Of a DNA stretch of 64,000 nt, positions 3,023 to 23,485 are shown piece by piece. The notes under the pieces are model-generated. The model saw only the letters and a list, made by a program, of their open reading frames with translations, had not been told where the DNA came from and did not search any database. The stretch is from a bacterium (GTDB lineage: Bacteria > Hinthialibacterota > Hinthialibacteria > H5-UNCL2). Where the stretch lies: NCBI GenBank assembly GCA_015075175.1, contig JABTUV010000002.1, positions 1 to 64,000 of the forward strand. Reading direction: 5' to 3'. Both the position numbers and the translations under genes were made by a program. Numbering within the stretch: position 1 is the first letter of the stretch; each line of letters opens with the position of its first letter.

Positions 3023-6000
3023 CTACTCCAACAAACGCAACACCAGATCCGCGCCATCTCGGAGATCATCTGCGCGAAGTTCTTCGACCCTCCATGGTGG
3101 ATTGCCCTCACGCAGCCGCCGGCGAATGAAGCGGTCGCGGCGGAGGTTGGGGCCTCTATGAAATGCTGCGCCGTCGACGTAAATGGCCAGTCGGCGTTCC
3201 GGAACTGCGAAATCGGCCACGGAGATCGGTGCTTCTCCATCCCTCGCGGCTACGGGAACCTGCTTCTGGGGATGGAAGCCATGCTGCTCGAACAGGCGCA
3301 GGAAGCGGAGTTCCAGCGGGGAACCGACGCCGGCGTGATAGGCTTCCAGCCAGGGAGCGGGATCGTCAAGGTCACCTGTTTCCAGTGGAGCGGGTCCCGG
3401 CGCCGCTTGGGCAAGCTCATCCAAGGCTGGGATGATCTGCGGCCAGGAGAGCATGTCGTGGTAGCGCTGATTGCCGTATGCCTTAAGGCAGCGGTAGCAC
3501 GCCGTCTCGCAATCTCTGTGGTCGAGATGCACGAGGGTACTCCTTGCCACGTCGTTGAACTGCTGCGCGATGCGCTCCAAGTAGCCACTTCCCCCCAGGT
3601 TCGGGTCGACGAATGTGACGCACAGGAGATTGCACTGGTCTTCGCGAACGGTGGACACCCACGGTCCTTCCAGTTCGAATTCCAACTCCCTTTCATCCAG
3701 CATGAAGTGGAGCCGTATGCCATTCAGTAGCGCGTATCCAAGCGACAGTCCCCAAGAAGTCCATTGATCCGTCCGCTCGGTCGCCGGAACGGGCAACAGA
3801 AGGCGAAGAACCTCGACCTGAGCGGCAGCAACGATCGCAAAGGGGCGAGGAGAAGTACCCCTCCGCGGACAGTCAGGCGCATGTCCATTGCCGTTTTGAT
3901 CCTGCGCGCCGGCTTGTGGATTCCTGCGCCCACCGCGCTGGTTGTCGATGGGTACGGGTGGGTCCAACTTGCGCCCGCATTCAGGACAAAGCAGGAAACC
4001 TCTTGCACCCATGTGGAGCATCGGCTGGCCGCTGTCCAGCTCCGCATCCGTGGGTGGTAGGCTTTCGTTCAACCAGCGCACCTCTTCCATGCTGCTCAGG
4101 CGCAACGCCCAGCCGTTAGGGAACCTCCAGCGCCCATGAACAACACCATCCCACTGCGGGTGAATCTTGACGAGGTTGCGCATGGCAAAACGATCCTCTT
4201 CGTCAAGAATCGGCTGCTCCTCGTGTTTGGCTACGAATCCGGCAAACTCGTACGCAGGACATCCTTGAGCTGGGCCGCTGGTACTACACCGTGGACAGCG
4301 GGGTTGATCCGCCGCGTAGCGCAGGTCGCAGATGGTACAAACCCGGTACGTCCAGCTTGGCCCCTCCGTACGAGGGTTCCAGGGAGAAGCCCGGTCCAGG
4401 CCTATCACGCGCCAGCGGCGCCCGCGGGCATAGACCAGGGCGTCTGGTTGAAATTGACCGATACCGAATCGTCGAATGGTGCTGACGGGATCCTCTTCGT
4501 GGGCGTCGCGGAGCAGGCGCAACGTTGCCGGTTCCGAAGGGAATTCGTACCCAGGCAGCAGACCGAATTCAGCGAAACGCCGCAATGGATAGCCCGCAGA
4601 GCGGTCGTCGGCGTCGTTCCCCTCTCCCCTGCGACTCGTTGGAATGCCGAGCAAGCGAGCGACAAGATCCCCGGCACTGGTCCCTGCGTGTCGGTTCATC
4701 AGCGACTGAGCGTAGTGGTCGAGCGCGTGTCGTAATTCGATCACCTGCCGAGACGTACGACTGAACACGTCTCGTATTCTGCCGGGCAGGTTCGTCAGGT
4801 TTGCGCGCAAGAAACAGTCATCGAGCCCAGTGGTGTTTAGCACATCCGCGTCCCACGCCTCGTGTGCAACGGTCAGTGCATGGTCCACTTGGCGCTCAAC
4901 GGCGGCAATCAGCTCGTCAACTCGCTCCTGATTGATCTCACCCGTTGGAGAGATATACTCCACCATTCGTCCCGCCAATCCCGGTTCCGCGGCCCCAAGC
5001 ACAATGGCATTCAGGTGGCGGGCGATGACATCGCGGTTGGCCAGGGAGACGATAGGGGCAGGTACTTCGCCCGCGATCATCTCGGCTGGGCGCTCGTAGA
5101 AGTACTGATCGTGCGGAGTGCGGCGGGCGTATCCCAGAACAAGCCCCACGCGGGCGCGGCGTCCCGCTCGTCCACCGCGCTGGGCATAGTTGTCTGGCCG
5201 CGGAGGCACGTTCCGCATGACGACTGCATCCAGGCCACCCACGTCGATTCCCATTTCAAGCGTCGGGGAGCAGGCGAGCACGTTTGTCGGAGACTCCCCG
5301 GCGGGTGCCTTGAAGTCATCCTCCAGCTTGCTGCGAACGTCTGTAGTGATTTGTGCAGTGTGCTCTCCGGCCACCAGGGGAATAGCCTCGGGCATGAGAA
5401 TTCTCTCAACGCTCCGGTGGTGACGGACGTCCCCAGAACTCCATTGCTCAAGTGTCCCGTGGCAGCGCGGACACGGCAGTTCGGCTCGGGCCATCGCTGC
5501 CGCGTGCCCACATACTCCGCAGCGAAGGCGACTGCTGTCATCGAGCAAGCAGAGGAAGGTCGCCTCGGCGTTTACCTGCAGAAGGTGAGTGTTTTGACGA
5601 GAGCCGTAGAGGCGGGAGGCGACTAGGAAATTCCCATGCTGGAGGAATTCCAGGATCGCGACCATTGTGTTTTCGTCAGGATCTATGCCGCCGAGACGTC
5701 GCAGCAGATTCCGCAGCGCCACTTCCAAGTGCGGTGGGCGCCCACCGCGGCCCGGCGCGCGCCATGCGTTCGAGCATCCAATCCCAGCGGGAATCTCCGC
5801 TCGATCGATGTAGGGCAACACAGACTGGTCGCGATCCAGTGGGTATCCGTGCGGTTGCTTGATCCTCCGCTCCCACTGCGCCGCACCAACGAAATCGGGG
5901 CATTCGCTGGAGCGGGGATCATACTGGAGCATGACTCGTGAGAACGCACCGCGCGAGCGCATGGCGTCGAGCAGGACTCGGCAGATGTAGAAGAGATCCT

Positions 6001-8122
6001 CCGAGGTGACTCCAAGACGCTCTGCCAGCTCTCCACCACATGCATTCACGTATTCATCCAGGCGGTCGTATCCAATCCCGACCAGTCCGAGGTTCAGGAC
6101 CGTGGAGCGATAGCCCGCATTGACCGAAATGTCGTCCAGGAGCGGCGCCTCCTCGAAGGCGCGAATGCGTTCCAGAGCCTCGGTCGGAATCCAACGCGTA
6201 TTCTCCGGAAGATACGGACTGTCTCTCCCGTCGATGGCCGCCTGCCCCAGCAACTCCACGGCACGCTGGATCGACAGGCGTTGATGCTCCAGCAGAAGAC
6301 GATACAAGCGGCGGCGCATGCGGTCGTAGCGGCTTGCGAAGATGATGAAACGCGCCTGGTGGGCGGCATCTTGGCGGCTGTCGCTGAAGATCAGGAGACG
6401 TTCCTTGCCGTCGTGGCCGGGGCGATCTCGATTCGCTTCCGCAAGGGCTTCCACGAGCCCTTCGCCAACCACCTTCACAGCCGCGGAGGTTCCGAGCGAC
6501 ACGGACGTAATCACGTTGCGGCTGCCGGCGGTACCGCCGCAGCAGAGGCATCGCGTGCGCCCGGGCGCCAGAATCACGTTGAGAGGATAGTCATTCGGGT
6601 CCGCGCTGAAGACGCTTGCTGCCGGGGCGAACGATCCCGTCATCACGGGCCGGCCGCCCATCTGGGTCGGCCTTCTCTGAGGACCTCTGCGCCCCCGGCG
6701 CGTCGGCGGACCAGCCTCCGGCGCTTGCGCATCCTCCTCGACTTCCTCTTCCTCCGCCCATCCTTCCTCAAACCGGCCGGGTTCGTAGAGCATCCACTCC
6801 GGTCCCTGGCTCTCGTCGGCCTCGCCGCGCAAGCCGGCGCCGGGATCGCCCACGAACCGGAGGTAGTGCGCGCCGCAGTTGCGGCAGAGGTACAGCGGCG
6901 CCGTGGCTGAGTTGCACTCGGTGCAACGCTCCTCACCCCGCGGGTACAGCCGCCCACATTCCGGATTGATGCAGCGATGGAACTTCCAGCCGCCGCGGAT
7001 GAAACGATGTGCACGCAATCGCAGCGCTCCGGGCGTGCCCTCCGGCAGAGCCGCCCCCAGCACGAGGCCCGCTTCCACCTCACGACACAAGGAGTCGTCG
7101 GCGACGGTGGAACGGCTGCCCACCTCGCTGCGCAGGCACGCCATCAGTTCGCTCGCCGGCATGGGGCGGCGCACCAGCCAGCGGTGCAGGTCCCAGATCA
7201 GCCGGCACTGCCGCACCGCATCGGACAGCGGCGTCGTTTCGGGAATCCCGGCCAGTCGGCAGATGGCGCGCCCGACGGCCGCCGAATCGCCGAGGTCGAC
7301 AGGCTCAAGGTCCACGTCTGGCGGGGTAGCCGGATACTGCGCCTCTGGTGGGATTGCGATGTCCTGCAATTGCTCGCCAAATACTCGGATATCCGACTCT
7401 GGCGCGCCGGTGAGCGTGTTGAAGAAGCCCTGCACGGCCACGTCTCTGCGACTCCGGATCTCCGCCTCCGGCAGGTCGTCCTCGACCAGGGAGCGGATGG
7501 TCGCCGAGGTTCCCACGGGGACCAGCGTGGGGAACCGCCGCGGGCGGTCCGCCGCGGATACTTCCGCGCCCCAGTCCTGGCGGGCGCGCGCGAGGTGGGC
7601 GCGGAGGCGGCGCACCAGGAGCGCGACGTTGCTGCCGAGGTTGCCGCGGTAGGTGTGGACTTCGTCCAGCACGAGGAAGCGACAGCGGTGGTTGGCGAAA
7701 ATCGCCTCCCGGTCGGACGGGCGGACCAGCAGGTACTCCAGCATCATGTAGTTCGTCAAGAGGATGTGCGGCGGGTTGTCGCGCATCTCCTTACGCTTCG
7801 CCTGAGGCGTGCCGCGGTCGTACTGTTCCACCCGAATGGCGCCGGCGAATCCCGCGGTCTCCAGGTAATCCTCGATGCGCTGTCGCTGATCGTTGGCGAG
7901 CGCGTTCATCGGGTAGACGAGGATCGCCGTCAGTCCGGACTTTCTGAAGCGGGTTGCGTCCTCCCAGGCGTTCTGGATCACGGGCAGGAGGAAGGCCTCC
8001 GTCTTGCCGCTGCCCGTGCCCGTCGTGACGACCACCGGACGCGCGGTTGGCGACAGGAGTTCCTCGATGGCCTCGGACTGGTGGATGTAGGCGTGCTCCG
8101 TCCCGGCGCGCTGCTCCATCAC
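3023..8122 (-). CDS. YprA-family DEAD/DEAH helicase with DUF1998 and C-terminal nuclease-like domain
   Basis: A ~1,700-residue superfamily 2 helicase. Walker A TGTGSGKT is at residues 34-41, DEVH at 153-156, and motif VI QRGGRAGRR near 980. Several zinc-type cysteine clusters follow (CINPECG, CTECN, CRNCG; CGVCG with CPRCHG; CTICD with CPRCS). A DUF1998 module at ~1490-1560 has its usual Cys set (CETACYRCL). The last ~90 residues look like a Vsr/DUF559-type nuclease fold (SVADFAV, YVDGAAFH). Helicase plus DUF1998 in one chain is the YprA/MrfA architecture; DISARM splits it into DrmA and DrmB, and Druantia DruE is related. GTG 8122 is the first start codon, but the frame continues upstream to 8299 with plausible sequence, and a further N-terminal piece lies in another frame around 8300 (VLNEYRSYFR), so a frameshift probably hides ~60 N-terminal residues. 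It is the last gene of the defence operon. Confidence 0.85.
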   Translation of the reverse strand: MMEQRAGTEHAYIHQSEAIEELLSPTARPVVVTTGTGSGKTEAFLLPVIQNAWEDATRFRKSGLTAILVYPMNALANDQRQRIEDYLETAGFAGAIRVEQYDRGTPQAKRKEMRDNPPHILLTNYMMLEYLLVRPSDREAIFANHRCRFLVLDEVHTYRGNLGSNVALLVRRLRAHLARARQDWGAEVSAADRPRRFPTLVPVGTSATIRSLVEDDLPEAEIRSRRDVAVQGFFNTLTGAPESDIRVFGEQLQDIAIPPEAQYPATPPDVDLEPVDLGDSAAVGRAICRLAGIPETTPLSDAVRQCRLIWDLHRWLVRRPMPASELMACLRSEVGSRSTVADDSLCREVEAGLVLGAALPEGTPGALRLRAHRFIRGGWKFHRCINPECGRLYPRGEERCTECNSATAPLYLCRNCGAHYLRFVGDPGAGLRGEADESQGPEWMLYEPGRFEEGWAEEEEVEEDAQAPEAGPPTRRGRRGPQRRPTQMGGRPVMTGSFAPAASVFSADPNDYPLNVILAPGRTRCLCCGGTAGSRNVITSVSLGTSAAVKVVGEGLVEALAEANRDRPGHDGKERLLIFSDSRQDAAHQARFIIFASRYDRMRRRLYRLLLEHQRLSIQRAVELLGQAAIDGRDSPYLPENTRWIPTEALERIRAFEEAPLLDDISVNAGYRSTVLNLGLVGIGYDRLDEYVNACGGELAERLGVTSEDLFYICRVLLDAMRSRGAFSRVMLQYDPRSSECPDFVGAAQWERRIKQPHGYPLDRDQSVLPYIDRAEIPAGIGCSNAWRAPGRGGRPPHLEVALRNLLRRLGGIDPDENTMVAILEFLQHGNFLVASRLYGSRQNTHLLQVNAEATFLCLLDDSSRLRCGVCGHAAAMARAELPCPRCHGTLEQWSSGDVRHHRSVERILMPEAIPLVAGEHTAQITTDVRSKLEDDFKAPAGESPTNVLACSPTLEMGIDVGGLDAVVMRNVPPRPDNYAQRGGRAGRRARVGLVLGYARRTPHDQYFYERPAEMIAGEVPAPIVSLANRDVIARHLNAIVLGAAEPGLAGRMVEYISPTGEINQERVDELIAAVERQVDHALTVAHEAWDADVLNTTGLDDCFLRANLTNLPGRIRDVFSRTSRQVIELRHALDHYAQSLMNRHAGTSAGDLVARLLGIPTSRRGEGNDADDRSAGYPLRRFAEFGLLPGYEFPSEPATLRLLRDAHEEDPVSTIRRFGIGQFQPDALVYARGRRWRVIGLDRASPWNPRTEGPSWTYRVCTICDLRYAADQPRCPRCSTSGPAQGCPAYEFAGFVAKHEEQPILDEEDRFAMRNLVKIHPQWDGVVHGRWRFPNGWALRLSSMEEVRWLNESLPPTDAELDSGQPMLHMGARGFLLCPECGRKLDPPVPIDNQRGGRRNPQAGAQDQNGNGHAPDCPRRGTSPRPFAIVAAAQVEVLRLLLPVPATERTDQWTSWGLSLGYALLNGIRLHFMLDERELEFELEGPWVSTVREDQCNLLCVTFVDPNLGGSGYLERIAQQFNDVARSTLVHLDHRDCETACYRCLKAYGNQRYHDMLSWPQIIPALDELAQAAPGPAPLETGDLDDPAPWLEAYHAGVGSPLELRFLRLFEQHGFHPQKQVPVAARDGEAPISVADFAVPERRLAIYVDGAAFHRGPNLRRDRFIRRRLREGNPPWRVEELRADDLRDGADLVLRLLE

Positions 8123-8402
8123 CCGGGCCAGGCGCGGATCGAGCGGCAGGTCGTGCCAGCGCCGACCCTCGCGGAACGGGCGGTGGGCCTGGTAGAAGGC
8201 CCTGGGCCAGGAACCCGGTTCATCCAGCTCCCGCTCCAGCGCGGCCCGCGCGCCGGGTCCTGGCGCGAACCCGTCACCGGAAGTAACTGCGGTACTCGTT
8301 CAGAACATGATCCAGCGCACGAATGGATGCGTGTCATCCAATCTCGATGATCTTCGTTCAAGATAAGCGTTACGTTCCAGACGGACTTCACGCGGCCAGT
8401 AA

Positions 8403-8582
8403 TCATAATCGATATCGCATATCCGCCGTACCGACTTTCTTATGAATCTGAGCCATGGTTTCTTGTGCGTCGGTACTGTCACCGACCTTGGTCGCTGCTC
8501 GAGATATCTGGTCGCGAAAGAGCACGAGGCATTTTCCGTTCTTTCGTGCGCGCTCAGTATTGTATGCCATGCACAGGCTCAT
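8403..8582 (-). CDS. Small protein between RES toxin and helicase genes (59 aa, probably ~95 aa if a frameshift is repaired)
   Basis: ATG 8582 overlaps the RES stop codon as ATGA. The frame reads MSLCMAYNTERARKNGK and stops at 8403. Another frame continues naturally from about 8415 to 8300 (DIDYDYWPREV to THPFVRWIMF), so the real product is probably ~95 residues with one indel near 8415. It is basic and contains a hydrophobic CLVLF stretch. I recognise no family. The translational coupling and its place between a toxin-like gene and the helicase suggest an operon component, perhaps a regulator or an antitoxin. It is too short for most gene callers. Confidence 0.5.
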   Translation of the reverse strand: MSLCMAYNTERARKNGKCLVLFRDQISRAATKVGDSTDAQETMAQIHKKVGTADMRYRL

Positions 8583-9604
8583 CCCAACGGCGTGTACGGA
8601 TGATCACAAAGAGACTGCGTGGGCAGGTATTCCAGTGGCGCATGATGAGGCATAATCGGTTGCGCGATCTCGCGGCCGAAATGGAGAAGAAACGGCTTCA
8701 CGTAAATCTCTGATCTGAAGTCAAAGTTTTCTGCATCAAACATGCTGATTCGTTCACGAGGGCTAACCAAATCTATCACGTTGAGGGGAACCTGGACACG
8801 GAATTGCCCCACGACGACATTCTCGCCGATCGCCGGACGAACCTCCGCGAGACAGGTCTGTTCGTCCTGGCAGCCGTAGAAGTGAGAGATACCACGTGGA
8901 CTCATACGGGTCTCGGTCGTGATATTTATGGGGGCGCTTGTGAGCGCCTTGTTTCCCCATCTTTCATAGCCTTCCATTGCGCGTCTTGCACGGTAAATCA
9001 CAGTGCCGGGGTTGATCACACTGCGGCACTGCGACAAAGCACCGTCAAACACCTCCCAGAGTTCAACCTGCCCGATGTCATCAAGTTGAGCGACGTCTCC
9101 TCTGCACATCGCATCGAAGTGGATATTCCGCTGTCGTTCCAAGTCCTCGAAGAGTGTGAAACGGCGATCATGCTTGACCATCGCGCAGAATGTGGTCCAA
9201 TACTCCAGATAGTCCCCGTAACTGCTGAGAGGATGCTGGACTATCAACGGTGTTGTATCGAAGCGTGACATCCGGACGAGTGTCTGAGGGAGTTCGGAGC
9301 CGCCACCGAATGGGGAGAAGATTGCCTCGTAGTCAATCAGGATCTGTTCCAGGTCGTTGGTGTCGAACTGGTAGCCGCCCTCGGCACTTTCATACGGCAC
9401 CTGTTGGGCTGCATCCTCGTATTTGCGGCTGATTCCCTCGTCCACGAACGGAGACATGTCCCACAACGCCGCTACTGGAACATCTCTGGATCCACAAAAC
9501 TCGCACTCACCTGTCGTTCCCTGGCTCTCGATGAAGGCCCGGATCGCCGGATCGGCGAAGCAGTCGCGGCAGCAGAGTTTGTCGCCATCTTCGGCGCGGG
9601 TCAT
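8579..9604 (-). CDS. RES-domain protein with HEPN/RES N-terminal domain (NAD-degrading toxin-like)
   Basis: 341 residues. The N-terminus has a zinc-ribbon-like pair (LCCRDC and CEFCGS, residues ~11-40) and the helical HEPN/RES-type N-terminal domain. The RES domain starts near 200: Arg in IYRARR, Tyr in SHFYG and Glu in CLAEVRP match the conserved R-Y-E set of RES proteins, an ADP-ribosyltransferase-like fold. RES toxins are known to deplete NAD+ and stop growth. No Xre/Xre-like antitoxin of the ParS/RES type is adjacent. The gene instead overlaps the methylase 3' end by ATGA (9601-9604) and the next small gene by ATGA (8579-8582), so it is translated as part of the defence operon. I infer an abortive-infection arm triggered by the helicase/methylase machinery. 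The assignment is firm, the trigger speculative. Confidence 0.82.
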   Translation of the reverse strand: MTRAEDGDKLCCRDCFADPAIRAFIESQGTTGECEFCGSRDVPVAALWDMSPFVDEGISRKYEDAAQQVPYESAEGGYQFDTNDLEQILIDYEAIFSPFGGGSELPQTLVRMSRFDTTPLIVQHPLSSYGDYLEYWTTFCAMVKHDRRFTLFEDLERQRNIHFDAMCRGDVAQLDDIGQVELWEVFDGALSQCRSVINPGTVIYRARRAMEGYERWGNKALTSAPINITTETRMSPRGISHFYGCQDEQTCLAEVRPAIGENVVVGQFRVQVPLNVIDLVSPRERISMFDAENFDFRSEIYVKPFLLHFGREIAQPIMPHHAPLEYLPTQSLCDHPYTPLG

Positions 9605-10368
9605 TTGCGCCTCCGCTTCGCGGAGATGCCGCGCAACAGGGGGTGGGCGGCGTCGGTGTTGTTGTCGTCCTCCAGGTCGGGGAGGTCGATGACGGGTTGG
9701 GGGAGGTTTTCGTTCAGGGGGATGTCCCAGTAGGGGTCGTACTTGCGCGTGAAGGCGTCGAGGCCGATGGCTTTCAGTTCGTCGAAGCGGGCCAGGCAGA
9801 GGTCGGGCGCCTTGGAGTAGCTCTTGTGGCTGAAGGTGGAAAGCACGTGGGCGTACTGTTCGCGGGAGAGCCCGTAGGCGTCCGCGACCACCGCGTCAAT
9901 TGCCGCACGCAACTCCCAGCGGGCGTCGTCGCCCTCCAGCACGGGCCAGGTGAAGGGCGGGCGTGCCTCGCGCCATGCCTCACCCAGCTGCTCTTCCCAA
10001 AGATGCGCGTAGGCAACATTATTGCAGGAAAGCCTCAACGCAATGTGTGCGACGCACTTACCGGCAACGGATTGTAGAGATGGCCAACCGATAGACGCCA
10101 TGACGAATTCACTCAGGCTTGCTTGTATTCGCTGCCTCACTTGGTAGTCAAAGGGATAGGTGGAAATGACGGCCAGCAATTGAAGCATTCGTGAGGATGA
10201 CCTCGACCACGGAGCCTTGTCCGCAGTAACCGTGTGGCTACTTGTGCATCCAGGTGGAACGATTGCAGCCATCGTGCTGCGTGGGTTCGTCTTTGTCGAT
10301 CCAGACGTGGCACGCAGCATCAAGCGGTAGTAGCAGGCAGCTCGCGTTAGCCCTCGCCGTGAACGCAC
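9601..10368 (-). pseudogene. C-terminal part of the DrmMI-like methylase, separated by frameshifts
   Basis: From about 10200 downwards this frame reads as the end of a large Eco57I-type methylase: residues such as PPFTWPVLEGDDARWEL, VADAYGLSREQYAHVLSTF and KYDPYWDIPLNENLPQPV are typical of the C-terminal target-recognition region. The first ~60 codons are not convincing. Between 10649 and 10368 a further stretch in a third frame (LRVESVLRKLEISLAAAH) also looks coding. The simplest reading is one gene, 13885-9601, broken by at least two indels. Its stop overlaps the RES start as ATGA, as expected of the natural 3' end. If the breaks are real, the methylase has lost its C-terminus. Confidence 0.7.
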
Positions 10369-10648
10369 GTCCGCAATGCGAACTGCTTTGGAGGGACGGC
10401 TATCCCAGCGCGAGCTTTCATCCGACTGCCATTCTGCATCATACGCGCCGATCGGTTGCCCTCAAAACCAACAGGGCGTTGACTGCCACCATTGTCTGCA
10501 AGTGGTCCGGCGCTCTGGGATCATCTATCACGTCCAGGGCCAAGGGACCAGGATCTCTCTATCATCGTTAGTGTGAGCCGCGGCCAAGGAAATCTCCAGC
10601 TTGCGCAATACGCTCTCCACGCGAAGCGATGAGAGAGCCAGCAAAACT

Positions 10649-13600
10649 TCACAGTCGAGCCGGCTGTGCAGCTTCCGGCAGTGCCAATGAGTCTCCACTT
10701 AACGCGCGAATGTCCTCTATCGATAGGACCAGTGGATTGGAGTCATCGTCAAACAATTCCTCCAGATTCTGCATGTCAAACATGCAAGAGATTCCCGGAC
10801 TTGGTCCGCCTGAGGTCCCGACAATTAGTGCGAATTTCATCACAGGCGGAATATCGAAGAGCCTTTTCATGTTCTGGTACGAACGACAGGTCCGCCACCC
10901 GCCACGGAGTAACATCAAATGGCGGACGCCGGTCCAGCCCGGCGTCCCTTGGATCGACGCTGGCAAGACAAGACCGATATTTCCACCTCGAACGGTTAGC
11001 ATCACGACGCGCTCGCAGAAATACGCTGACAAGTCTGGGTCTCCTCGTCGGTAACCGAGGTTGTCTCCACCACAGACGGGGTAAAGCGCGTCAAGGGCCG
11101 CTTGAATTTGCGCAAAGTGTGAACCAAACCGCTGCCATGCGAGCCTTGCTGCGCCATTTCTGAGGATGGCCTGTGCGATTTCCTTGCGTTCGGAGGTTGA
11201 GTTGGCGGCTAAATACCGCTCATCCGACGTCGAGAAATACTCCTTTTCTTTTGGTCGGAACGTATCCCACGGCGGATTGCCGAGCACCGCGTTAAACCCC
11301 TGCTGCCCGTGCGGGATGCCGCGAGGATAGAAGACCTCGGGGTAGGTGAGGTCGTATGACAGCGCCGGGATGCATTCGACCGACGTAAGGAGCGCGTAGA
11401 TGGAATCGCGTTGCGCGGGGATCTCTTCCACGCCGAGTCCATGCGCGATCATCGCCCGGAGCGGTTCGGAGTCAATCGTCTCCGGCAGATCGCCGGTCTG
11501 GCCGATCACTCTCAGCAGGGCCGAATAGGCGTGGTCGTCGCAACGCTCCGCCCCCAGCATCACGCCCCCGCTCCACGCCGCGGCAAGCACCCGGAAGGGC
11601 AGGAGGGCGCGGTCGAGCTGGGCCTTGGTCTCCGCCTTGCGCACCAGTTCGGAGACGGTCGCGCCTACCCCGGCGTCCAGGTCGCCCACGTAGTGGATCG
11701 CCTCGCGCAGGGCCTTGTCGAACTCGATGTTGAGCCCCTGAACGAAAAGGTCCTCGACGGGCTCATTGCGGTTGCCGGGCCGGAAGATCAGGTGCTTCCA
11801 GAAGGGTCCGGTGAGGGAGTCGCCGACCACGAGGCGGTGGTCCAGGAACGTGAGGGGCATGCCCTCGGCCTGGGACTCCAGCCAGAGCGCCAGCTTGGCG
11901 AGTTCCACCGCCAGCGGGTTCTTGTCGACGCCGTAGAGGCAGTGGGTGGCCACGAGGCGCCGGCAGAGGGCGACCGCGAGCCGCTGGGAGAGGCCGGACT
12001 CGCCGCCCTCCGCCGCGTGGCTGGGGAGGTAGCGCACGAGTTCGTCTTCCGGGTCGGGCAGTTCGAGCACCCGCTGCCGCCAACCGGCGGCCTCCTGGCG
12101 CGCCTTCTGCTTCTCCTCCGGCTTCCGTGCGGACTCGGCCCTCTGCTCCGCCTGCGACGCCTGCTCATCGCAGTAGCGGCAGGCCTCGTAGAGCTTGTCG
12201 GCCAGGAAGCGGCAGGCCTCGACGAGGAAGTGCCCGCTGCCCATCGCCGGGTCGAGCACCTTGAGGTGGAGGATCTCCAGCGGGTGGGGATCGTTCTCCG
12301 GGCTGCATTTGGCGACCTGCGGGCCGAGCGTCTCCTGCACGAGGAAGCGCACGAAGGAGTGGGGCGTGTAATACGAGCCGGTCGCCTTGCGTCCGAGTCC
12401 GGCGCGGAGGTAGAGAAGCGGCCGGGCGGGATGGCCTCGATCCATTCGACTTGGTCTTCTTGCCGCGGGTGGGGGTCTCGTCTCTTCCGGCTCCTCGCTT
12501 TCGTTGTCCTCATCTTCAGAGAGGTCCACGACCGAGGTGTCTTTGGGATGGTACTTCTCCCCCTGGGCAAGGGGGACGACCACTTCGAGCTTCTGGCGGC
12601 GCAAGCGGCACATGGGCTCGGCGGTGATGCCCGGCTCGAGCTCGAGGAGCGCCTCGTAGACGCGCCCGAGGTCTTCCACGTCGAGCGGGCCGTAATGGAC
12701 GCGCTCGCGGGACTTCGTGCCCCGTTTAACAGCCGTCCAGAGGAGATTGTCAAGCAGATGGGCGACGGCGCGCTCACCCCAGGAAAGGCGGCCCAGGATG
12801 GGCGTGGCCGTGGGGCCGAACAGTGCTCCGCCGAGTGGCTTGACGTTGAGTTCCGTGCATTCCAGTCCCTCCGCCAGCATGCGGAAGAGGGTGCGAAGAC
12901 CATCTTCCAGGAAGCGCCCGGTCTGCTGGCCGGCGAGGACGGCTCGCGCGTACGGGGCGAGCGCGAGGCCGGGGGAGAAGGTCCGGCGCCAAAGTCCCGT
13001 GGAGGCAAAGGTGAACGAGCGGCCCGGGTCGTCGCCGGACTCCAGCTTCAGCACGAAGAGAAGGCGATAGACGGTGATCAGCCCCTCCCGCCAAAGCGCG
13101 CGGGCGAGGGCTTCGCGGTCGGTCTGTTCGGCCAACCAGTCGCGGTTGTCGGGGTGGTCGAGCACGCACTGGACGAAGCCTTCGACGGCACGGCGCGCCT
13201 GGAGGCGGAGTTCCTTGGTAACACGGGCCTGCTGCAGGCGGGCCTTCTCGACAAGGTCGGGCAGCGCGCGCACGCCCTCAGGCGAGGCGAGAGCCAAGAC
13301 GAAGCGGAGAGAGTCGGGAACATGGCGGCTGCGCTTCCAGTCCGGATCGAGCGGAATGCTGACGACGGAGTCGGGCCGCGCCGGATCGGAGAGCAGCAGC
13401 TGCAGTTCGATGCCGTTGGTAAGCAGTCCCAAACGCTCGTTGGTCGTGAGCAACACGCGCTGGGCGATCTTCTGATGGCTGTAGCGGAAGTGCCGCCCGC
13501 GTTTGGTGGGGGCGGCGAGGTCTTCGTTGAAGGACGTGGTCCAAACGCGGAGCCTGGCGCCGTCGTCGGCGATGAGGAGCGTGCCGCCGGATTCGAGGTC

Positions 13601-13885: not shown

Positions 13886-16800
13886 GACTTCGCCTCCGGC
13901 AGGAGCATCAGCACGCCGAGCGGCACGATCTCCGGCGCCCTGAGATCGCCACGGCCCCGCAGGTCGGCAAGCCGGTCGTGATACAGCCTCAAGACACCCT
14001 CGGCTTCCAGTCGAGCCCTGACCGGTTGCGAACGATCCTCGTGGAACGCCGCCAAGCACTGCTCCGGGTCCTTGCGAGAGGCCCAGCTACGGCTGGGGAC
14101 GCGGGGGACAGAGGCCGGATCATCGAACAGACCCACCTCCCACGGCTGGGCTCGTTCGGCGGCGTCGGTGATTTCGTCGGCGCGCTTCTTGAGCCACTCC
14201 GCCTGAGCCGCCATTTCCGTCTCCAACGTCTTCATGTGCGCCGCTACGAATGAATCGGCCATTGGACCGAAGCCCTGTTCGGCCGCAGCTTGCGCTTGCC
14301 CCTGGGCATCCTCCCACCAGTTCTTGTAATGCTTCTTCCAAAGGTCGGTCGTGCGCAACGCCTTTTTCGGGTCGGCCAGTCCGAGCCAATGGTCCGCTGA
14401 ATCCAGGAACTCCGCCGTTTCGTCCTGATTCACGCGGACGGCCAGTACGCGTTCCAGTTCCCGGCCGCGACGGCTGGCCATCCTCCCAAGGAATGTGAAG
14501 AGCAGGCTTGGTTCGGACACATTTGCGGCGACGGCGCTGGCGCGGGTATCCAGCCCCCTGCGGACGGCCTCGCCCAGGGAGAGGCTGCGGACGCTGTCCA
14601 GAGCGCGACGAACCAATGGATGCGCCCGCCCGAGATAGCCGACCGGGCGCTTCTTGTCATCCGCGGTAACGTCAATGTCCGTCGTAAGGCGGACCAGACG
14701 GGACTCGGCGTCATAGCCTGGCAGGTCGTCGAGATCGTGCAGCCAGTGCGGCGGCAGGCGGAGGGCGAAATGCGGATTGTCCAGGCTGCCGACCACTTGG
14801 CCGTTCTCCAGGAGCACAGCGTCGCACACGAACTGCGCGAGGTCCACGTGAGCTGCCTGCTCGCCGACGCGCGCGGCGTCCTCCGCTTCGTCTGAAAGGC
14901 GCTGCTCGGCATTCACGCCCGTGCCGCCGAGCCAGTCACACGAGCGCGCGGTCTCCCGGAAGCCATGCAGTACGCGGTCGATCTCTTCCAGCAGCTCGCG
15001 CGTCGCCTTGTCCGCGCCTTCGTTCTCCCGCTCTTCGTGAAGATCAAACAGAACCGGATCGCCGCTGAAGAGCTTGCCCTCCTCGTTGATGAGACCGTCC
15101 AGCAACTTAACCTGAACGAACTCATCTCCCAAGCTGACCCCCAACGTGTTGGGGACAAAGGTGAGGCGCGCCCTTTGCCGCTCCCACTTCATCACGAGGC
15201 GGAGGAGAATGCGCTCCTCGAAAGTCCCCCGGAGGTAGAGATAACGAACCATGGGGACAAGCGTCTGGCCATACCGGTCGATTCGGCCGTTGCGCTGCTC
15301 CAGGCGGTTGGGGTTGAACGGCAGTTCCAGATGTATCAGGTGGTGGCAGCGGTAGTGCAGGTTCAGGCCTTCCGCGGAGGCATCGGTGCTGACGAGAATC
15401 TGGTTTGTCATTTGCCCGGAATGTGGAGGTGGTCGCCGTTCGTTGGTTCTGGTCGTCAGTTCCACGAAAACTCTGGACTCCGGCAAGACCGGCGGACTTG
15501 AGACATGCCACGGCGGCGTCGAGACTGTCGGTGTACTCCGTGTAGACAAGTACGTTCGCGTGCGGCTCCGCTTTCCGAATGGACTTGATCGTGTCGACCA
15601 GAGCGTCGAGCTTTGGGTCCTGATGTAGGGCACCCTCAGCGAGGTCGCTCAATTCATCGAGGCGCGCCAGGATGTCGGCCACCTTCGACTCGCGGTACGA
15701 GCCGCGCCGGATGTCCTTCTGCAGGGACGCCAACTGGTGGCCGAGGTCCTCCGCCGCAAGGAGGCACTGCTCTTCTTCCTCTTCGAGTGTCACAGCACCG
15801 AATCGGTCCAGTTTGCGCTGGTAGTCGCGAAGTGTGCGAACGCGCTGGCGGCGCTCCTCCTGCTGCTCCGAAGCAGACTTGAGGAAACGTTCAAGGTTGA
15901 TTGCAACCGCGCTAAGCGTTGTGTGGCACGCCTTTACGGTCGAGACGCTGCGCTTGAGAAGAACAAACCAGGCGAGCACACTGGCGTAGTCATTGCCGCG
16001 GAAGGCTCGCTTGAGTTGCGGCGCAAGAAGATCCAATAGACCGCGCTGGAGATCCATGAACCGGTCGTGGTGCTTGGCGTCGGCCACTACCGGCACGGGA
16101 GTAACTTCCCGCTCGGGGAACATGGGTTTCGTCTGTCCAGGACTATCCGGATCCGGGATACGAAGGTGCTTCTTGAGGCGGCGAACCGCATGGTCGCGGT
16201 AGCGGTCTCCACGCAAAGCGCCGCGGCCGTCCACGAGCGAACTATCGAGCAGCTCGCATAGCGAAGCAAACGAGCGGTCGTTTCCGTCATGAGGGGTAGC
16301 CGTAAGCAGGAGGAGTGCATCGCACGACTTCGCCAGAACCTTCGCAAGGCGCCGGCGCTGCGTGTCCTCCCGCTCCGCGGCTGATCCGACGTCCATGCAA
16401 TGGTGCGCTTCGTCGATGACGACCACGTCGTAGGAGGTCCGCTCGAGCTGTTCCACAATCCGTTCCTGCTTGAGGAAATCGATGGACACCAGGCCATGGG
16501 AAATGTGGTCGAACGGATTCGCGCCGAGCTCCTGGCCACGACGCACCTCCTCCAAGGCAGCGCTGTCGATGATGCGCAGCCGAAGCCCGAAACGCTCCCG
16601 CATCTCCTCGTGCCACTGATTCAGGAGGAGGCCGGCGGGCGTGACGATCAGGATGCGATGCGCCAGGCGGCGCGCAATGAGTTCGGTGAGGACAAGGCCA
16701 GCCTGCACCGTCTTGCCGAGGCCGACATCGTCCGCGAGTAGCAGGCGCGTGCGGCTCATGCGGATTGCCCGGAGGGCGGGGACCAGCTGATAAGGTTCCA

Positions 16801-17107
16801 AGCGCAGCCTACCTGGCTGAACCGCGACCATAGCACTCGGTCCGAGAGCTTGCTCCAAGAGAAACGCCTGATGGTAGGCCAGCCAGTTGTCGAGATGGGC
16901 GGCCCGCTCAGGTTGGAGATCGTGACGAATCGGTTCTATCTCTTCCAAGGGAGAGAGGACGTCTACTTCCGCGCCCTGAGTCGAATGATCGAGCCCCCGC
17001 AAGCGGTAGAGAGTCTGAAGACCCAGTGACTCCGTTCCTACGACCTCCCACCGAAGGCCTCGCGCGGTTACTTCAGTACCGGGCAGGATGGCAAGTGGTT
17101 CAGCCAT
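13882..17107 (-). CDS. DrmD-like SNF2-family helicase, one frameshift
   Basis: About 1,075 residues when joined. It starts at ATG 17107 with a strong GGGAGG ribosome-binding site 7 nt upstream. Walker A is ADDVGLGKT (~residue 125), the DEAH box is VVIDEAHH (~230), motif III is LLTATPHDG, and the helicase C-terminal half has STDASAEGLNL and QRNGRIDRYGQ. The 5' frame carries residues up to ~15420 and the 3' frame takes over at MTNQILVSTDA, so a single-base indel lies near 15405-15420. The motif spellings and length match the SNF2-like helicase DrmD of class 1 DISARM, where it pairs with an adenine methylase, exactly its neighbour here. It is separated from the upstream SNF2 gene by 128 bp, the only sizeable gap in the operon, so a second promoter is possible, though I see no good one. 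Confidence 0.83.
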
Positions 17108-17235
17108 GTCGGCAACCTCCCAATATCAGCAGCAAAGGTCAAGGGATCACGTAAAGTCTTCTTGCACCATAGCAGAAATGCGCGATGCGGGGACCAGCAT
17201 CTCCGCTACAGAAACAAGCATGGCGGCACCAAACC

Positions 17236-20102
17236 TCATGCCGAACGTAGGTCCTGCAAGCCCAGCCGGAAGGTCAGCCGATTTGAAAGACTGTCTGGTA
17301 AAGGTATGGCTGATTCGGACTCTTCGGTAATGAGCCTGCTGACTTCTTCCTGGCCCATCACCACGCGAAACCACTGCTCGCGGTCGGTCATCACGCGGTA
17401 TTGCCGTTCGTCCGCGGCGCCGGCGAGGTAGGGGAGGTAGACCACGATCGGCTGCCGCCCCTCGGCCTTGCAGCCGATCCGGTCGATGCGTCCGGTGCGC
17501 TGCTCGATGCTGCTCGGATTCCACGCGAGGTCGTGGTGGATCACGTGGCGGCAGAAGCGCTGCAGGTCCACGCCCTCCCCCATCACTTCGCTGCACACGA
17601 GGATGTCCGGGAAGAAGGGCGTGTTGAAGGCTCGCATCAGCCGCGCCCGTGTTGCTCGGTCTGTCTCACCCGTGGCTACCTGTACGTTGGCGAGCGTGAC
17701 TCTGCTCGAATCTCCGGAATCGTCGGCGTCGCCGGCATCGACCCGAATGCCGCGGGTCTGCGTCCTTGCCGCCGCTTCCAGATAAAACCCACGTTCCGCC
17801 GTGGAGCATTGCGTCGTCAGAAACTTTACAAAGCCATCGAACTTCCCGAGCCAGGAGATACCCGAGCCGTCTTCGTGCCGCAGAACTCTGTCCACTGCGA
17901 CGGTTGGATCGATTGTGTCCAGTTCCGCCAGTGGGAAACAGCGGACCAGCGTCGACTGCACGCGCAGGAACCGGCGCATGACGTCGAGCATCCGCTCGCG
18001 ATCATCGTCGGACGCGCCGACCCTCTCCAGCGCGTCAGCGTGTTTCAGCAGGATCGCGTTCAACGCACCGTCAACTGCAATCCTCCCGGGCCTCGTTTTG
18101 TCGTCAAAATATCGGTTCTGCACCCTGTCAATCAGCCGGTCCACCTCTTCGTCGCTGGCCCCGCCCAACTGCCGCCGGGCATCCGCCATCAGTCGCCGCT
18201 CGATTTCGAAACTGATATGAAGGCGCAGGGCGCGGCAGGTGTAGCGGTAAAACGCGAACACCAGAACCTTCTCTCCGGCCTCCCACAGGTCCACAATTCT
18301 CCCCACCGTTGCGCTGATCTTGGGATGAGTTGCTCCCGACGAATCTCCGAGCATCCTGTCGAACTCACCGAGATACCACTGCGCGTGGCCAAGGTCTTCG
18401 CCCATGTTCGCCGTCTCGTCCTGTTCGTCCTTCTCGGCTTGCTTATTCTCGCGCGTGAAGCGGAACGCTTCATAAGAGGAGCAGAGGGCCTCGGCAAGGA
18501 GATCCTTACCCGGCTGAATTGCACTGCGGGCGGCCAGGAAAAAAGGCAGGAGCTGCCCCGGCGGAATCCTGAGTCCCCCCTGCCCATCGTGCCGTGTGAT
18601 GCCTTCGCCGTGGATACGTTGCCGGCGTGGGACTTCCGTCCCCACCCACAACTGGGCCTTGTTGTGGCGGGCGACCCAAGGGCGCAAGGCTTTTTCGGCC
18701 GAGTCGCGAGCCGTACGTGCGGCGTCGAAGGCGTCTACGACCCCGCGCTGTCGGTGTGTCAGTGCCTCCCGGTTACACGCAGTGAGCGCGTCCCACCACG
18801 ATTCGGTACCACCATCCGCGTCCTCAGGCTGCAACCGGCTCCACGCCTTCTGAAACGCGATCGCCGTCCGCTGGCTGTCGGTCAGTTGGTCGCCCAGGCT
18901 GGCAAGGCGGCTGCGAAACGCGTCCTGCTCCCCCAATTCCACGGTATTCCACTTCACGTCTCCGAAACGCTGCAGCACGCTGACGAGCTCGTGGTGCCCC
19001 AACTGGAAGGGCGTGGCCGTGAGAAACAGCATCCGATCGAAGGCATTTGCCATCGCCCCGTCGCCCAATCTAAGGTCCTGCTCGGAGTCCGGGCATTGCA
19101 GCGTGCGTGCGAGCGAGGTTCCCGGGTTCTTCAGGTGGTGGGCCTCGTCGAGCACGAGCAGAGGCGAGCGCCACCGGCTGCGTGCCAAGAGCTCCTTCCA
19201 AAGGTTGTCCTCCACCCGGCGGAGGGCGCGCCTTACTTCGTTGAGACGCTCCGTAAGGCGCTCATCCCCACCCCGCGCTCGGACTGGCATGTTCTTGAGT
19301 GCTTCGGCCAATTCCCGCAGTTCGATGCGGTCCAGAGCGCGTACCACCGCTTTGGGGACAGGATCATCGTCCAGTCTCTTGTGCTCGTCGCGGACTCCGC
19401 CGTTGTAGATCTCCTGCCAGGACTCGGGATCAGTATGGAGCAGGTGCGGCCACAGATCCTCCCGCAGTTCGTGCGCCCGCTCCTCGCTGAGCGCAAAAAG
19501 AAGCTGGCCGAGAAAGCGATGGATCTGTCCCTTTACCTGGATGAGCCGCCGAGCACCACCGCGACCATGCCGACGCAACGCCTCCGCAATCAGCGCGAGC
19601 CGTACCCATTTATCAGTCTGACTGCGGGACATCGCCCCTGCCCCACGAAGATCAGGTGGCAGCGTTCGCGTGGCGCGTCGTCCAAGAGCTTCATCAGCTC
19701 CACGCTATGCCGCGCGATGCCAAAGCGGATTACGCCCGGGTCCATCATTTCCTTGCGTGTCGCGCCTTCGCGGCGCAGGGGGCGCCGGCCTTCCAGATAC
19801 AACTCGCAAAACGTCGCAAGGTCCTGCTCCCACTTGTCGATCAGATTGGGGGGTACCATGAGGATGACGGGGCCTTTGGGGCTCTGGGTCGCGATACTGT
19901 AAGCCACGGCAAGGGCTACGTACGTCTTGCCCATGCCGACCTCGTCGGCGAGGATGACGCCCGGCTGACTCTTCAGGCGGCGCAGGATTTCGACCGACTC
20001 CGCGCGCTGACGGAGCTGGTCCGCCTCGGGCACCCGCTCATTCAGGCGCATGCCCAGGACAAGGTCCCTTGGTGGTTTGTAGATGTCGTTCAGTTTCGGC
20101 AT
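17236..20102 (-). CDS. SNF2/DEAD-type helicase of the PLD-associated family, one frameshift
   Basis: About 955 residues when joined. It opens with MPKLNDIYKPPRDL. Walker A is ADEVGMGKT (~residue 50), the DEAH box LVLDEAHHLKN, motif III FLTATPFQLG, and the C-terminal helicase half ends with EQRTGRIDRIG. The 5' frame runs 20102-19590 and the 3' frame 19632-17236. The break sits in a G-rich run near 19640, where one extra or missing G restores VGQGAMSRSQ. The start overlaps the upstream PLD stop by 13 nt. This helicase and the PLD protein look like a fixed pair, as in many defence islands; the ATPase probably translocates on DNA and feeds the nuclease. It is distinct from the DrmD-like helicase downstream. 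Confidence 0.82.
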
Positions 20103-22197
20103 CGCTCTAATACCCGATCCCAGAATTGCAGTGCACCGGCGCCAAGCCGGTCACGAATACAAGTGACGTCGGAGTCCAGCCGATTCGCCAGTTCTCCCAG
20201 AAACGGCCGGAAGATCGCCTCGAAGTCCGGCTTGCTGAGAGCGCCGTCGCGCGGTTGGTAGTCCACTTCACGCAGCACAATCAGGAAGTCGGCCAAGGAC
20301 AACAGTGCCTCGTCCGCCGCGCCGTCGGCTGCAGCGAGATTCCCGGCCATGCGCTCCGCGAGCGGTTCAATGCCGATCAGCCCCCGGAGATGCCATTCCA
20401 CGGCTTGCCGACTCCAGACCGGCCGCTCCAGGTTGGCGCGCAAGCGCGCAAGGATGCGCGCGCGCCGGCGGATGCGATGCAGGAAGGTAGCCTCCAGGTC
20501 GTAGCGCCGCAGCGGATCGAGGTCGGGAGGGGTCGCCGAGTCGAGGTCGTCGTCGAAGATGTCAGAGGGCTTGCTCTGCCGGGCCCAGACCCTGAAGGCG
20601 GCACTGGGATCCGACGCGGCCAGAATCCAGAGCATGTCGTCCGCCGACATCTCACTCAGCGACTCCGGAGCGGGCAACTTGTGGCTGTCTTCGACATTGA
20701 GGGGAAGGAAGGCCTCGTTCCCGCCCCAGCGAACCAGCAAACGCTCTGGAGGCTGGACCGGCGACCAACTCAGTTCGACAGTCTCTGGCCTTCCAAATTC
20801 CTCCCAGGAGACATGGCCGATTAGATGGTCCTGCTGCCGGCCGCAGGCGTACACATCCCACGCCTCAGGCAGCCGATCCGGCGCCAGGTACAGGAGTACC
20901 TGCCGGACATCCCCAGCCCGATACGTCGCGCCAAGGAATCCCCGGGGTACAGGCGAGGCGGCGGCCTGCTCCTCCTCGTCACGTTCTGGTTGTGCACCAA
21001 GCCACTCCGCGGCGTCCGGGTCGGCGATCACAACTACGTCGGGCCACACAGCCGCAAGCTGACCGACATCCCGTCCGAAAGCCACGCGTTCCACCAGCGT
21101 GAGCAGGTTGGCCTCCGCATTGCGATGGCCGCCGATGCCCATTCCCGCGCAGGTGAAGTTCGAGGAGCCGATCATGAGCGCGTAGCACGAAGGGGACTGC
21201 AGTTCAGCAAGAACTGCGTGCCACGGCCGGACATTCTGCTCTTCGTCCTTTGCCGGGGCGTGGCAACCGACGCCGTGGCCTGGTACTTGAGTGGCGTTTG
21301 CACCAGAGAGCGGGGGGCGGCCAGACGAGGAATTGCGGCTTGGGCATCCTCACACACGGCAGGTACACAGAAGTCGATCTTTCGACTGGTTCCGCGAGCC
21401 ATCAGCTTGCACAGCGACGACACTACGCGGCACTCCTCGCCGTCAAGATCGAAGAAGGGAGATGCAACGCGCACCTTGTCAGGAGAAGAACCATGCTTCC
21501 GGCACGCGGTGACGGCTTCCGCGAGGCTGCTCCGTTCCATCCCGCCCGTCGCCGCGGCAGGCAACGTGAACACCAGCTGCTGCCGGGTGGTCCCTCGCCG
21601 CTTGATGGGAGTCCAATGCTAGACCTGCCGTTCGACGTGAGAGAGGAAATTACTTGCGCGCCGGACCTCCGGTAGGTCGACTCCTCCCCTTGGTACCATG
21701 TTGATGAGTGAACGAAGGAAGGCGACAGCTTCTTGCAGCGCCTCGGTGTCGGCCTGCTGCGGAGAGAGGTCGATGGCTCCGGCCACCTCGAAGTTGGTGC
21801 GATAGCCCGGCTCGGTGAGATTCGCGGATGCCACGATGATCCGAATATGCCGGGTCCATGCCAGCAGGGAGAGTTTGGCGTGCTGCTTACCGGATGGAAG
21901 ACGCACTGGCAGAACGTCCCACCGCAGCGAATGCTCTACGCCCGCCTGGGTGTGGTCGACGAGGACCCCGGCGTAGGCGCCGCCCAAGCGACTCTCACGT
22001 TCCAGGAGGAATGCGAAGTCTTCGCGATTCGGGTCGGACTCGATCTCGAGGAAGCGCGCTAGGCATTGCTCATCAAAGAGGCCCGGATCGAACGTGTAGG
22101 TGGTCGCAAGGCATCCCATCGGATCACCCGCCCCCTGCGGAGCCCTCCACAGGTCCAGCATATGGCCGCTGCTCGCTGACTTCGCGCGCCTGCTCAT
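20090..22197 (-). CDS. Phospholipase D-fold (HKD) nuclease-like protein, frameshifted
   Basis: About 700 residues reconstructed from three frames (22197-21619, 21573 to ~21280, ~21275-20090). The N-terminal HKD half shows HAKLSLL and ASANLTEPGYRTNFEV, the usual His-x-Lys plus Asn/Glu pattern. The second half has RPWHAVLAELQ followed by GSSNFTCAGMG and HRNAEANLL, where the Lys of HxK is Val. Proteins of this kind are DNA nucleases or DNA-end-binding factors in defence islands (compare DrmC). The start forms an ATGA overlap with the preceding gene (22194-22197) and the stop lies inside the helicase start region, so the three genes are coupled. If the second active site is truly degenerate, the protein may act as a dimer using only the first HKD motif. 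Confidence 0.72.
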
Positions 22198-23485
22198 GAG
22201 AGGTCCTTATGGAATCGTCTAATGGGATGGCTGCGGTATTCATGAACGTAGCGGTCAGGCTGGATCTCACGGCGCGCCACGCGATAGGTGTGTCGCATGT
22301 AAATACGTTCGCGTCCGATACGGTCGAACCAGGGACGCTTGCCCTCCGCCGATTTGCCACGCTGGACGATCTCGTGATGCTCGCAGAGGACGAGGGCACA
22401 GGCTGCCGCGTCCATGGGGACCTCAAAGCGGCCGAACCGCTCGACGAACAGGTGCGGAAGCGCGGCGCCAACGAGGCTTATGTCCGCGAGCGCATGGTGT
22501 GCGGCAGTGAATCGGTCGTGCAGGCCATTCACGCTCTGGCAGAATTCCTCGTCGCGCGCGACTTCTGGCACGGGGTATCCCTGAGCGTCGCGTCGAGCAG
22601 ACTCGGAGCGGAGAATGTCGAAAGCATCCTGCAGCCTGCGAGCGAAGGCCTCATAGGCACGAATCGCCTGAAGTAGTGAGCCGTACTCCGGAGCCCGCCG
22701 TTCAAGCAGGTGGTGGACTTCTTCCTCCTCGTAGCCGTCGTCCTCAAACTCATCCTGAAGTTCCCACATCAGTGGCAGTACTCCAAGACCGCGTCCGGAG
22801 GTGGACAGGACGAGTTCCCGCAGAAAGCGCCTCTCCCGAGTCCGTCCGCCCGAAGGAGCGAACGCATGGGCCAATTCCTCCCACGCGTCGCTCCTCCATC
22901 TCGGTTGCGTTCGGGGCGGCTTTTCGCCAAGGCTCCGCCGCACTGCATCGGACCAGCGCGTCAGGAGCGACTGGACATTGCGAAGGTTCGCGAAACCCAT
23001 TCCGCGCGCCCAAGGCGTCCGCAGCTCCGCATTCAGGCCCGGCGCGAGGTGGACGTCAGAATGCCGAGGTGCGCCGCCAGGCGTTTGTCAGACGCCATGG
23101 AACCCGAAATGCGTGGGGTCTTCAGATAACTCCGGGCGTCGACGTAGCCATGCTGTTGCAGCGCCCGTCGCGTTACCAGCGTTCCCGACACCCAGATCGA
23201 TGGATCCTCCCGGACGGACGAACGATCGCCTCGACGATCAGCCACTCCCAGACGAGGTACGGTGAGGGCATCTCGGTAGGCGGGACTGTCTTCGAGGTCT
23301 TCCGGACGAGGAGCACCCACAGCCATGGCGGTGAGAAACCGGATGCGCTGCATGCGTTCGCGCACAGCCGGCACGAGTTGCACGTGCCAACTGGTCGGCA
23401 ATTTGGTACAACCCAGCGGATCCAGCGAACCCTCACTGGACCCGGGTGGGTCGTACGCCGTCAGAAAAGGGAAGAACCGCCGCAC
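22194..23485 (-). CDS. Conserved protein of unknown function, first gene of the defence operon, several frameshifts
   Basis: About 430 residues when pieced together. It starts at GTG 23485 (RRFFPFLTAYDPPG). After RIRFLTAMAVG the frame changes; SPYLVWEWLIVEAIVR is read in a second frame near 23250, then DPSIWVSGTLVTRRALQQHG and SYLKTPRIS return to the first. From about 23045 a third frame gives DVHLAPGLNAELRTPWARG and runs to 22194. Each junction restores a continuous, natural-looking sequence, so single-base indels are likely near 23280, 23220 and 23045. I recall relatives next to PLD and SNF2-helicase genes but know no domain name or activity. It overlaps the PLD start by ATGA. It may be a structural or sensing subunit of the same complex; that is inference from context. 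Confidence 0.62.

Follow-up and report, generated by a model that had tools for sequence, protein, structure and literature searches.

Two probable neighbouring anti-phage systems in one bacterial gene run: an Azaca/PDC-M27-like trio and an ARMADA-type operon of a putative third deep lineage

Introduction

Does a run of defence-like genes packed on one strand form a single composite system or several systems standing side by side, and are these of a described kind? This question was raised by the window, i.e., the whole 64-kb stretch of DNA analysed here, which makes up the first 64 kb of the 337,580-bp contig C12 in a MAG that is 84% complete; 14 genomes from its phylum were included. Co-oriented genes encoding PLD, SNF2, helicase, methylase, RES and YprA-DUF1998 proteins extend along the minus strand from 23485 to 3023, and a sequence-only reading had interpreted them as one composite defence operon of eight genes, possibly undescribed. 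ARMADA, which was named in 2025, is presented in the main text of the preprint as two types built from a BrxHII/RapA-like ArmA, a PglX-like ArmB and a YprA-DUF1998 ArmC with a C-terminal Vsr-type nuclease (Bell et al. 2025; PMC12458937). In the present study, we found that the run probably consists of two neighbouring anti-phage systems, namely an Azaca/PDC-M27-like trio and an ARMADA-type operon of a third deep lineage. The anti-phage role that had been proposed for these genes was supported by homology.

Gene content and frame breaks of the run

The following features were assigned in the window:

22194-23485, minus strand: trio gene A (ZacA / PDC-M27A position), covering ORFs 23033-23485 and 22194-23000 and assigned from its location ahead of the PLD gene, which matches the Methylocystis and Vibrio trios
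20090-22197, minus strand: trio gene B, PLD-like (ZacB / PDC-M27B-like), in at least three frames
17236-20102, minus strand: trio gene C, SNF2 helicase (ZacC / PDC-M27C-like), with one frameshift between 19590-20102 and 17236-19632
17108-17235, no strand: probable boundary between the two systems, with no homology upstream of ArmA common to relatives
13882-17107, minus strand: ArmA, BrxHII/DrmD-like SNF2-family helicase
9601-13885, minus strand: ArmB, PglX-like adenine methyltransferase
8298-9604, minus strand: HEPN-RES protein, intact ORF 8579-9604, with the C-terminus in other frames to about 8298
3023-8310, minus strand: ArmC, YprA-family helicase with DUF1998/MZB and a putative C-terminal Vsr-like nuclease, its start placed near 8310
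8119-8406, minus strand: spurious 95-aa ORF, read in another frame than the RES C-terminus and ArmC N-terminus that it covers

The run therefore comprises some seven genes, the majority of which are interrupted by frameshifts. The sequence-only reading was correct in placing them all on one strand, whereas its count of eight did not hold, since ORFs 23033-23485 and 22194-23000 probably belong to a single gene and the small gene that it had included in the operon is the out-of-frame artefact at 8119-8406. This ORF overlaps coding sequence in other frames and was rejected as a gene. The single gap longer than 100 bp that had been described was recovered at 17108-17235 (128 bp), as were the ATGA-type junctions, for example at 9601-9604 and between the ArmA stop (13882) and the ArmB start (13885).

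At least eight frame breaks were found within 20 kb. Using tblastn with the relatives, we located a frameshift near 15405 in ArmA, another between 10673 and 10431 in ArmB, a break in the RES C-terminus after 8582 and a frameshift near 8290-8310 at the 5' end of ArmC; the PLD and SNF2 genes were also split across frames. Frameshifts of the same kind split the essential genes rplK and rplJ as well as nadC elsewhere in the MAG of the window (G000:C1, 258697-259112, 260116-260546 and 106672-107218, respectively). Because these genes are broken likewise, the breaks in the run suggest errors in assembly or base calling more readily than a decaying locus. Gene calls in this MAG in general need care on account of the frameshifts inside rplK, rplJ and nadC.

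The upstream trio resembles Azaca and PDC-M27

The trio agreed with Azaca (ZacABC) and the PADLOC candidate PDC-M27ABC in having three genes in the order unknown-PLD-SNF2; the PLD domain of Azaca and the ZacC helicase have been noted previously (PMC10952713, PMC12278908). Gene C matched both PDC-M27C and ZacC in PADLOC (2e-24 each), its N-terminal piece matched PDC-M27C (1e-12), and an alignment with the Methylocystis homologue yielded an E of 2e-27. The profile matches of gene B (DrmC/ZacB/PLDc_2) were weak, with a direct ZacB match at 0.0024; its region 22152-21709 aligned with a Methylocystis ZacB-like protein at an E of 8e-14, and it reads HxK at the first site and GSSN at the second. For gene A, with the broken pieces as queries, no family or profile match was obtained, including ZacA and M27A. 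Residues 6-28 of the Vibrio M27A gave a weak local match to 23467-23399 (E 2.2), and a tblastn search with gene A and the PLD tail found no plasmid match.

Matching trios were observed on Methylocystis and Vibrio plasmids, with ARMADA genes absent among the annotated neighbours. The Vibrio plasmid trio scored 5e-172, 2e-219 and 0 against PDC-M27A, PDC-M27B and PDC-M27C, respectively, and among the Methylocystis plasmid proteins, A matched ZacA (weakly) and B matched ZacB (2e-11), gene B of the window being homologous to this ZacB-matching protein. The window trio differs from Azaca/PDC-M27 in its divergent sequence, in the unmatched gene A and in the breakage of all three genes. The trio is probably of an already known kind. 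For the trio, whose plasmid equivalent corresponds to known PADLOC systems, the suggestion that the run is possibly undescribed was not borne out; what remains of it concerns the ARMADA half alone, which forms an unnamed lineage.

ArmA, ArmB and ArmC

The identities of ArmA and ArmB were supported by profiles and trees. ArmA matched the DrmD/BrxHII profiles, retained Walker A and DEAH, and showed 57-67% identity to the ArmA of relatives in both frames. ArmB matched the Eco57I / N6_Mtase and DrmMI profiles, carried the motifs DPAMGSGHF and NPPW, and was 48-61% identical to its relatives. ArmC, in which DEAD, Helicase_C and MZB were detected, shared 64% identity with the ArmC of locus L078; its MZB domain and helicase were fused in one gene, and in the tree it joined the ARMADA and Druantia rows, with DrmA lying elsewhere. 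The fused YprA helicase-DUF1998 protein that had been singled out from the sequence was thereby assigned to ARMADA, given the single gene, the ARMADA/Druantia branch and the ArmA and ArmB partners.

Motif alignment indicated that ArmC of the window clade (described below) retains Walker A, DEVH, motifs V-VI and the DUF1998 cysteines, and that it lacks the long tail with which ArmC ends in type II. Within its C-terminal region, E, D, D and H positions were invariant in 10/10 members. An AlphaFold model of the last 119 ArmC residues, of moderate confidence (pLDDT 75), returned the I-Bth0305I catalytic domain as Foldseek rank 1 with a probability of 0.92, and its comparison with Vsr (1cw0) yielded a Z of 7.4 (<8) over 102 residues at 4.0 A. 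No match at E <= 0.001 was obtained when this model was compared with the PDB by Foldseek, and a PDB sequence search with the Vsr and RES regions gave nothing significant. These results suggested that the C-terminal nuclease of ArmC is of the Vsr type, as in the ARMADA class. Immediately downstream of ArmC and close to the end of the contig lies a tyrosine recombinase gene (window 1817-2569, minus strand); its presence hints that the island is mobile now or was so formerly.

We then compared the operon with other systems containing such proteins. It resembles class 1 DISARM in that the DrmD-like helicase and DrmMI-like methylase profiles match ArmA and ArmB. However, the YprA helicase and DUF1998 are fused, there is no drmA/drmB/drmC set and no PLD gene after ArmC, and in the trees of ArmA and ArmB the DISARM rows grouped on their own. 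DISARM membership was rejected by gene structure and trees, which agreed with the earlier statement that the run is not canonical drmABC DISARM. With regard to Druantia III, DruE was the nearest PADLOC profile family for ArmC, but the DruE rows stood apart from ArmC, no DruH-like neighbour was present, and the C-terminus was predicted to be Vsr-like rather than PLD; Druantia membership was likewise rejected. None of the TALON/BRIGADE genes (NERD, TPR-CSD, TBP, deazaguanine with two YprA helicases) was seen in the window operon, and the tree held no TALON/BRIGADE YprA rows.

Phylogeny and distribution of the ARMADA-type core

Trees were obtained by quick searches with SH-aLRT support only, and the ArmA and ArmB rows of the window were joined from in-frame pieces. 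The type I references came from Nocardioides, Sphingobium, Acidithiobacillus, Chlorohelix, Planktothrix, Euhalothece, Thermus and others, and the type II references from E. coli ATCC 8739, Streptomyces, Nostoc, Cylindrospermopsis, Microvirga and Haematobacter; Druantia III of E. coli ATCC 8739 and DISARM of the window's phylum were also included. In the ArmA, ArmB and ArmC trees, type I, type II and the window clade each formed a single group (support 96-100), and the window clade contained 11-14 rows with a support of 100 in every tree. Its stems measured 1.6-1.8 changes per column when type II was represented by six rows and type I by 10-14. In the ArmC tree, type I (14 rows), type II (6), Druantia (3) and the window clade (11) were four separate groups with supports of 99-100, and the stem of the window clade reached 1.83 changes per column. 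The ArmC of the window thus belongs to neither the type I (14 rows, support 100) nor the type II (six rows, support 100) YprA subclade, its own clade of 11 rows having a support of 100. The nearest neighbour of the window clade differed among the trees, being type II for ArmA and ArmB and type I for ArmC.

The window operon and type II (E. coli ATCC 8739, NC_010468) share the order ArmA-ArmB-ArmC and the SNF2, PglX-like and YprA-DUF1998-Vsr parts, and an ArmD (RelE-UvrD) homologue was present in five window-clade members. They differ in that the window clade is separate in all three trees and its ArmC is without the extra C-terminal domains. The strict type II order ArmA-ArmB-ArmC-ArmD was not observed; the window carries HEPN-RES and no ArmD, and in relatives ArmD precedes ArmC or is missing. 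Type I (e.g., Nocardioides pNOCA01) has the same three core families, and its ArmC carries one short nuclease region at the C-terminus, but it falls in a separate clade and usually begins with YprA. The operons of reversed order that were tested, from archaea and cyanobacteria, belonged to type I; among them, the haloarchaeal operon of ArmA, ArmB and ArmC nested there and not in the window clade. Collectively, the ARMADA half is a deep lineage that is unnamed in the main text of the ARMADA preprint (PMC12458937).

The core order ArmA-ArmB-ArmC recurred on single contigs of cyanobacteria and Chloroflexota. The window clade was rare, being detected in 2/386 cyanobacterial and 2/400 Chloroflexota genomes, and these four include genomes already known as carriers. 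No relatives were found in the viral contigs scanned with ArmA, ArmC, SNF2 and gene A.

Several further loci were observed during these searches. Two Chloroflexota genomes, G019 (L065, L066, L076) and G022 (L068, L069, L080), carry several ARMADA operons each, of type I and of the window lineage. On the Pseudanabaena plasmid ABRG53a (L086, 15356-28213), a window-clade ArmC ends against a convergent Druantia-type helicase gene, which is another ARMADA-Druantia pairing, outside Enterobacteria. Thermus and Allomeiothermus plasmids (L088, 1-17982; L095, 2167-17994) encode, in the order typical of type II, BrxL, ArmA, ArmB, ArmC and a UvrD resembling ArmD; their ArmA, ArmB and ArmC fall with type I, and these loci are possibly hybrid.

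Gene content between ArmB and ArmC

The RES gene had been reported as part of the operon, and this was confirmed by its location between ArmB and ArmC at 8298-9604. Its product matched the Pfam families HEPN_RES_NTD1 (3e-19) and RES (4e-7), and, in line with RES toxins in general, it is a likely NAD+-consuming accessory. The RES proteins of L078 and L103 were 34% identical to that of the window, through to about 8400. The RES proteins of the two RES-bearing slot loci shared 34-37% identity with each other and 39% with a lone RES from another genome. Because the two slot proteins resemble each other no more than they resemble the lone one, RES appears from sequence comparison to be a visitor rather than a founding part of the operon.

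The window clade swaps toxin/effector genes at this internal position, for which the following contents were recorded:

Window: HEPN-RES
Hydrogenedentes: HEPN-RES, GmrSD-N and a SIR2-Argonaute fusion; two contigs, presumably adjoining ArmB
Tolypothrix: GmrSD-N
Desulfofundulus: a DUF262/GmrSD-like ORF, judged by sequence; two contigs
Chloroflexales ZM16-3: GmrSD-N and ArmD
Chloroploca: a thioredoxin-like protein and ArmD
Calothrix FI2-JRJ7: ArmD
Cyanobacterium L102 and Planctomycetota L083: nothing on the coding strand

The ArmD homologues (RelE-UvrD) between ArmB and ArmC belonged to Calothrix (two loci), Chloroflexales ZM16-3, Chloroploca and Pseudanabaena; they were full-length and showed 24% identity over 734 aa to E. 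coli ArmD. Insertion at this position is not unique to the window clade, because type I and type II operons also carry inserts between ArmB and ArmC. At L078 (5530-8805, minus strand), a 1091-aa SIR2-Argonaute long fusion (PADLOC pAgo, Aga_SIR2) adjoins ArmC after HEPN-RES and GmrSD-N. In Anaerolineae Bin_34 (L079, 6688-7497, plus strand), a gene with an Abi_C abortive-infection domain lies shortly downstream of ArmC.

Alternative readings of the locus

The shared strand, the tight spacing and the lone 128-bp gap would also suit a single composite system whose seven or eight genes act jointly, as the sequence-only reading had proposed. To examine the synteny, the genome collection was scanned with ArmA; 13 loci were recovered in which ArmA was full-length (50-64% identity), along with two in which it was partial. 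The trio was not found upstream of ArmA in any relative with a readable flank, and the equivalent trio stands alone on plasmids. Furthermore, relatives of the SNF2 protein were found neither in the 13 other genomes of the phylum nor in the 14 core-bearing genomes; none was found in 400 Chloroflexota genomes either, a search run without a positive control whose emptiness is weak evidence. The whole array was peculiar to this contig within the genomes searched, an outcome that the sequence-only reading had itself set against its proposal. On synteny, a single composite operon was rejected and is considered extremely unlikely, which takes a false "composite system" off the list. A decayed pseudogene island, whose function would be moot, would fit the number of frame breaks in 20 kb, but the ribosomal genes rplK and rplJ as well as nadC are equally broken in the MAG, identity to relatives continues across every core break, and the catalytic motifs are retained; decay is therefore regarded as very improbable.

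For the ARMADA half, the apparent third lineage might instead be published type II (or type I), having arisen as an artefact of thin sampling or being already counted inside the types. ArmD is common to type II and the window clade, ArmA and ArmB joined type II in the first trees with supports of 83-99, and the tree described in the preprint covers about 52,000 YprA proteins, so that sequences of this clade were probably included (PMC12458937). However, once six rows of type II and 10-14 of type I were in the trees, the window clade lay outside both types, its ArmC lacks the long type II tail, its ArmD precedes ArmC rather than following it, and the archaeal ArmA-ArmB-ArmC operon fell in type I, not in the window clade. 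We consider assignment to a published type rather unlikely. Returning to the reading as two neighbouring systems with a deep ARMADA lineage, we tentatively suggest, as a possibility held at less than even confidence, that this lineage represents a third ARMADA type. In such a type, the DNA-processing core of ArmA, ArmB and ArmC would be conserved, and the position separating ArmB from ArmC would serve as a plug-in slot (RelE-UvrD, HEPN-RES, GmrSD-like, SIR2-Argonaute), thereby coupling one recognition core to interchangeable killing or back-up effectors, several of which are predicted to consume NAD+.

Proposed mechanism

The main text of the preprint reports that all four genes of ARMADA II and their motifs are needed and that protection is non-abortive (PMC12458937). 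DruE, a helicase-nuclease related to YprA, loads on 3'-tailed DNA and cuts DNA (PMC13192584). By analogy, ArmC is most likely a DNA-engaging helicase-nuclease, ArmA a second translocase and ArmB a self-marking or sensing methylase. From the observed gene content, order, phylogeny, motifs and variable slot, together with the predicted Vsr-like fold, we infer the biochemical steps and the coupling of RES to the core as follows. ArmC would load onto 3' single-stranded tails of infecting or replicating DNA, translocate 3' to 5' and cut the DNA through its putative C-terminal Vsr-like nuclease. ArmA may act as a second, SNF2-type double-strand translocase or remodeller, and ArmB may methylate adenines, either to mark self-DNA or to sense missing marks. 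HEPN-RES, in the exchangeable effector slot, could provide an NAD+-consuming back-up if direct attack fails.

If this holds, a deep third lineage with movable effectors would help to tell the invariant machine from its swapped parts. The natural versions with and without ArmD would also allow a test of whether RES, GmrSD or SIR2-Argonaute can stand in for RelE-UvrD, a subunit that type II cannot do without. Divergently oriented from the defence operon, the window encodes a 930-aa protein (24002-26794, plus strand) in which one XRE/Cro-C1 HTH unit is repeated at least four and probably six times; this protein is possibly a regulator of unusual build.
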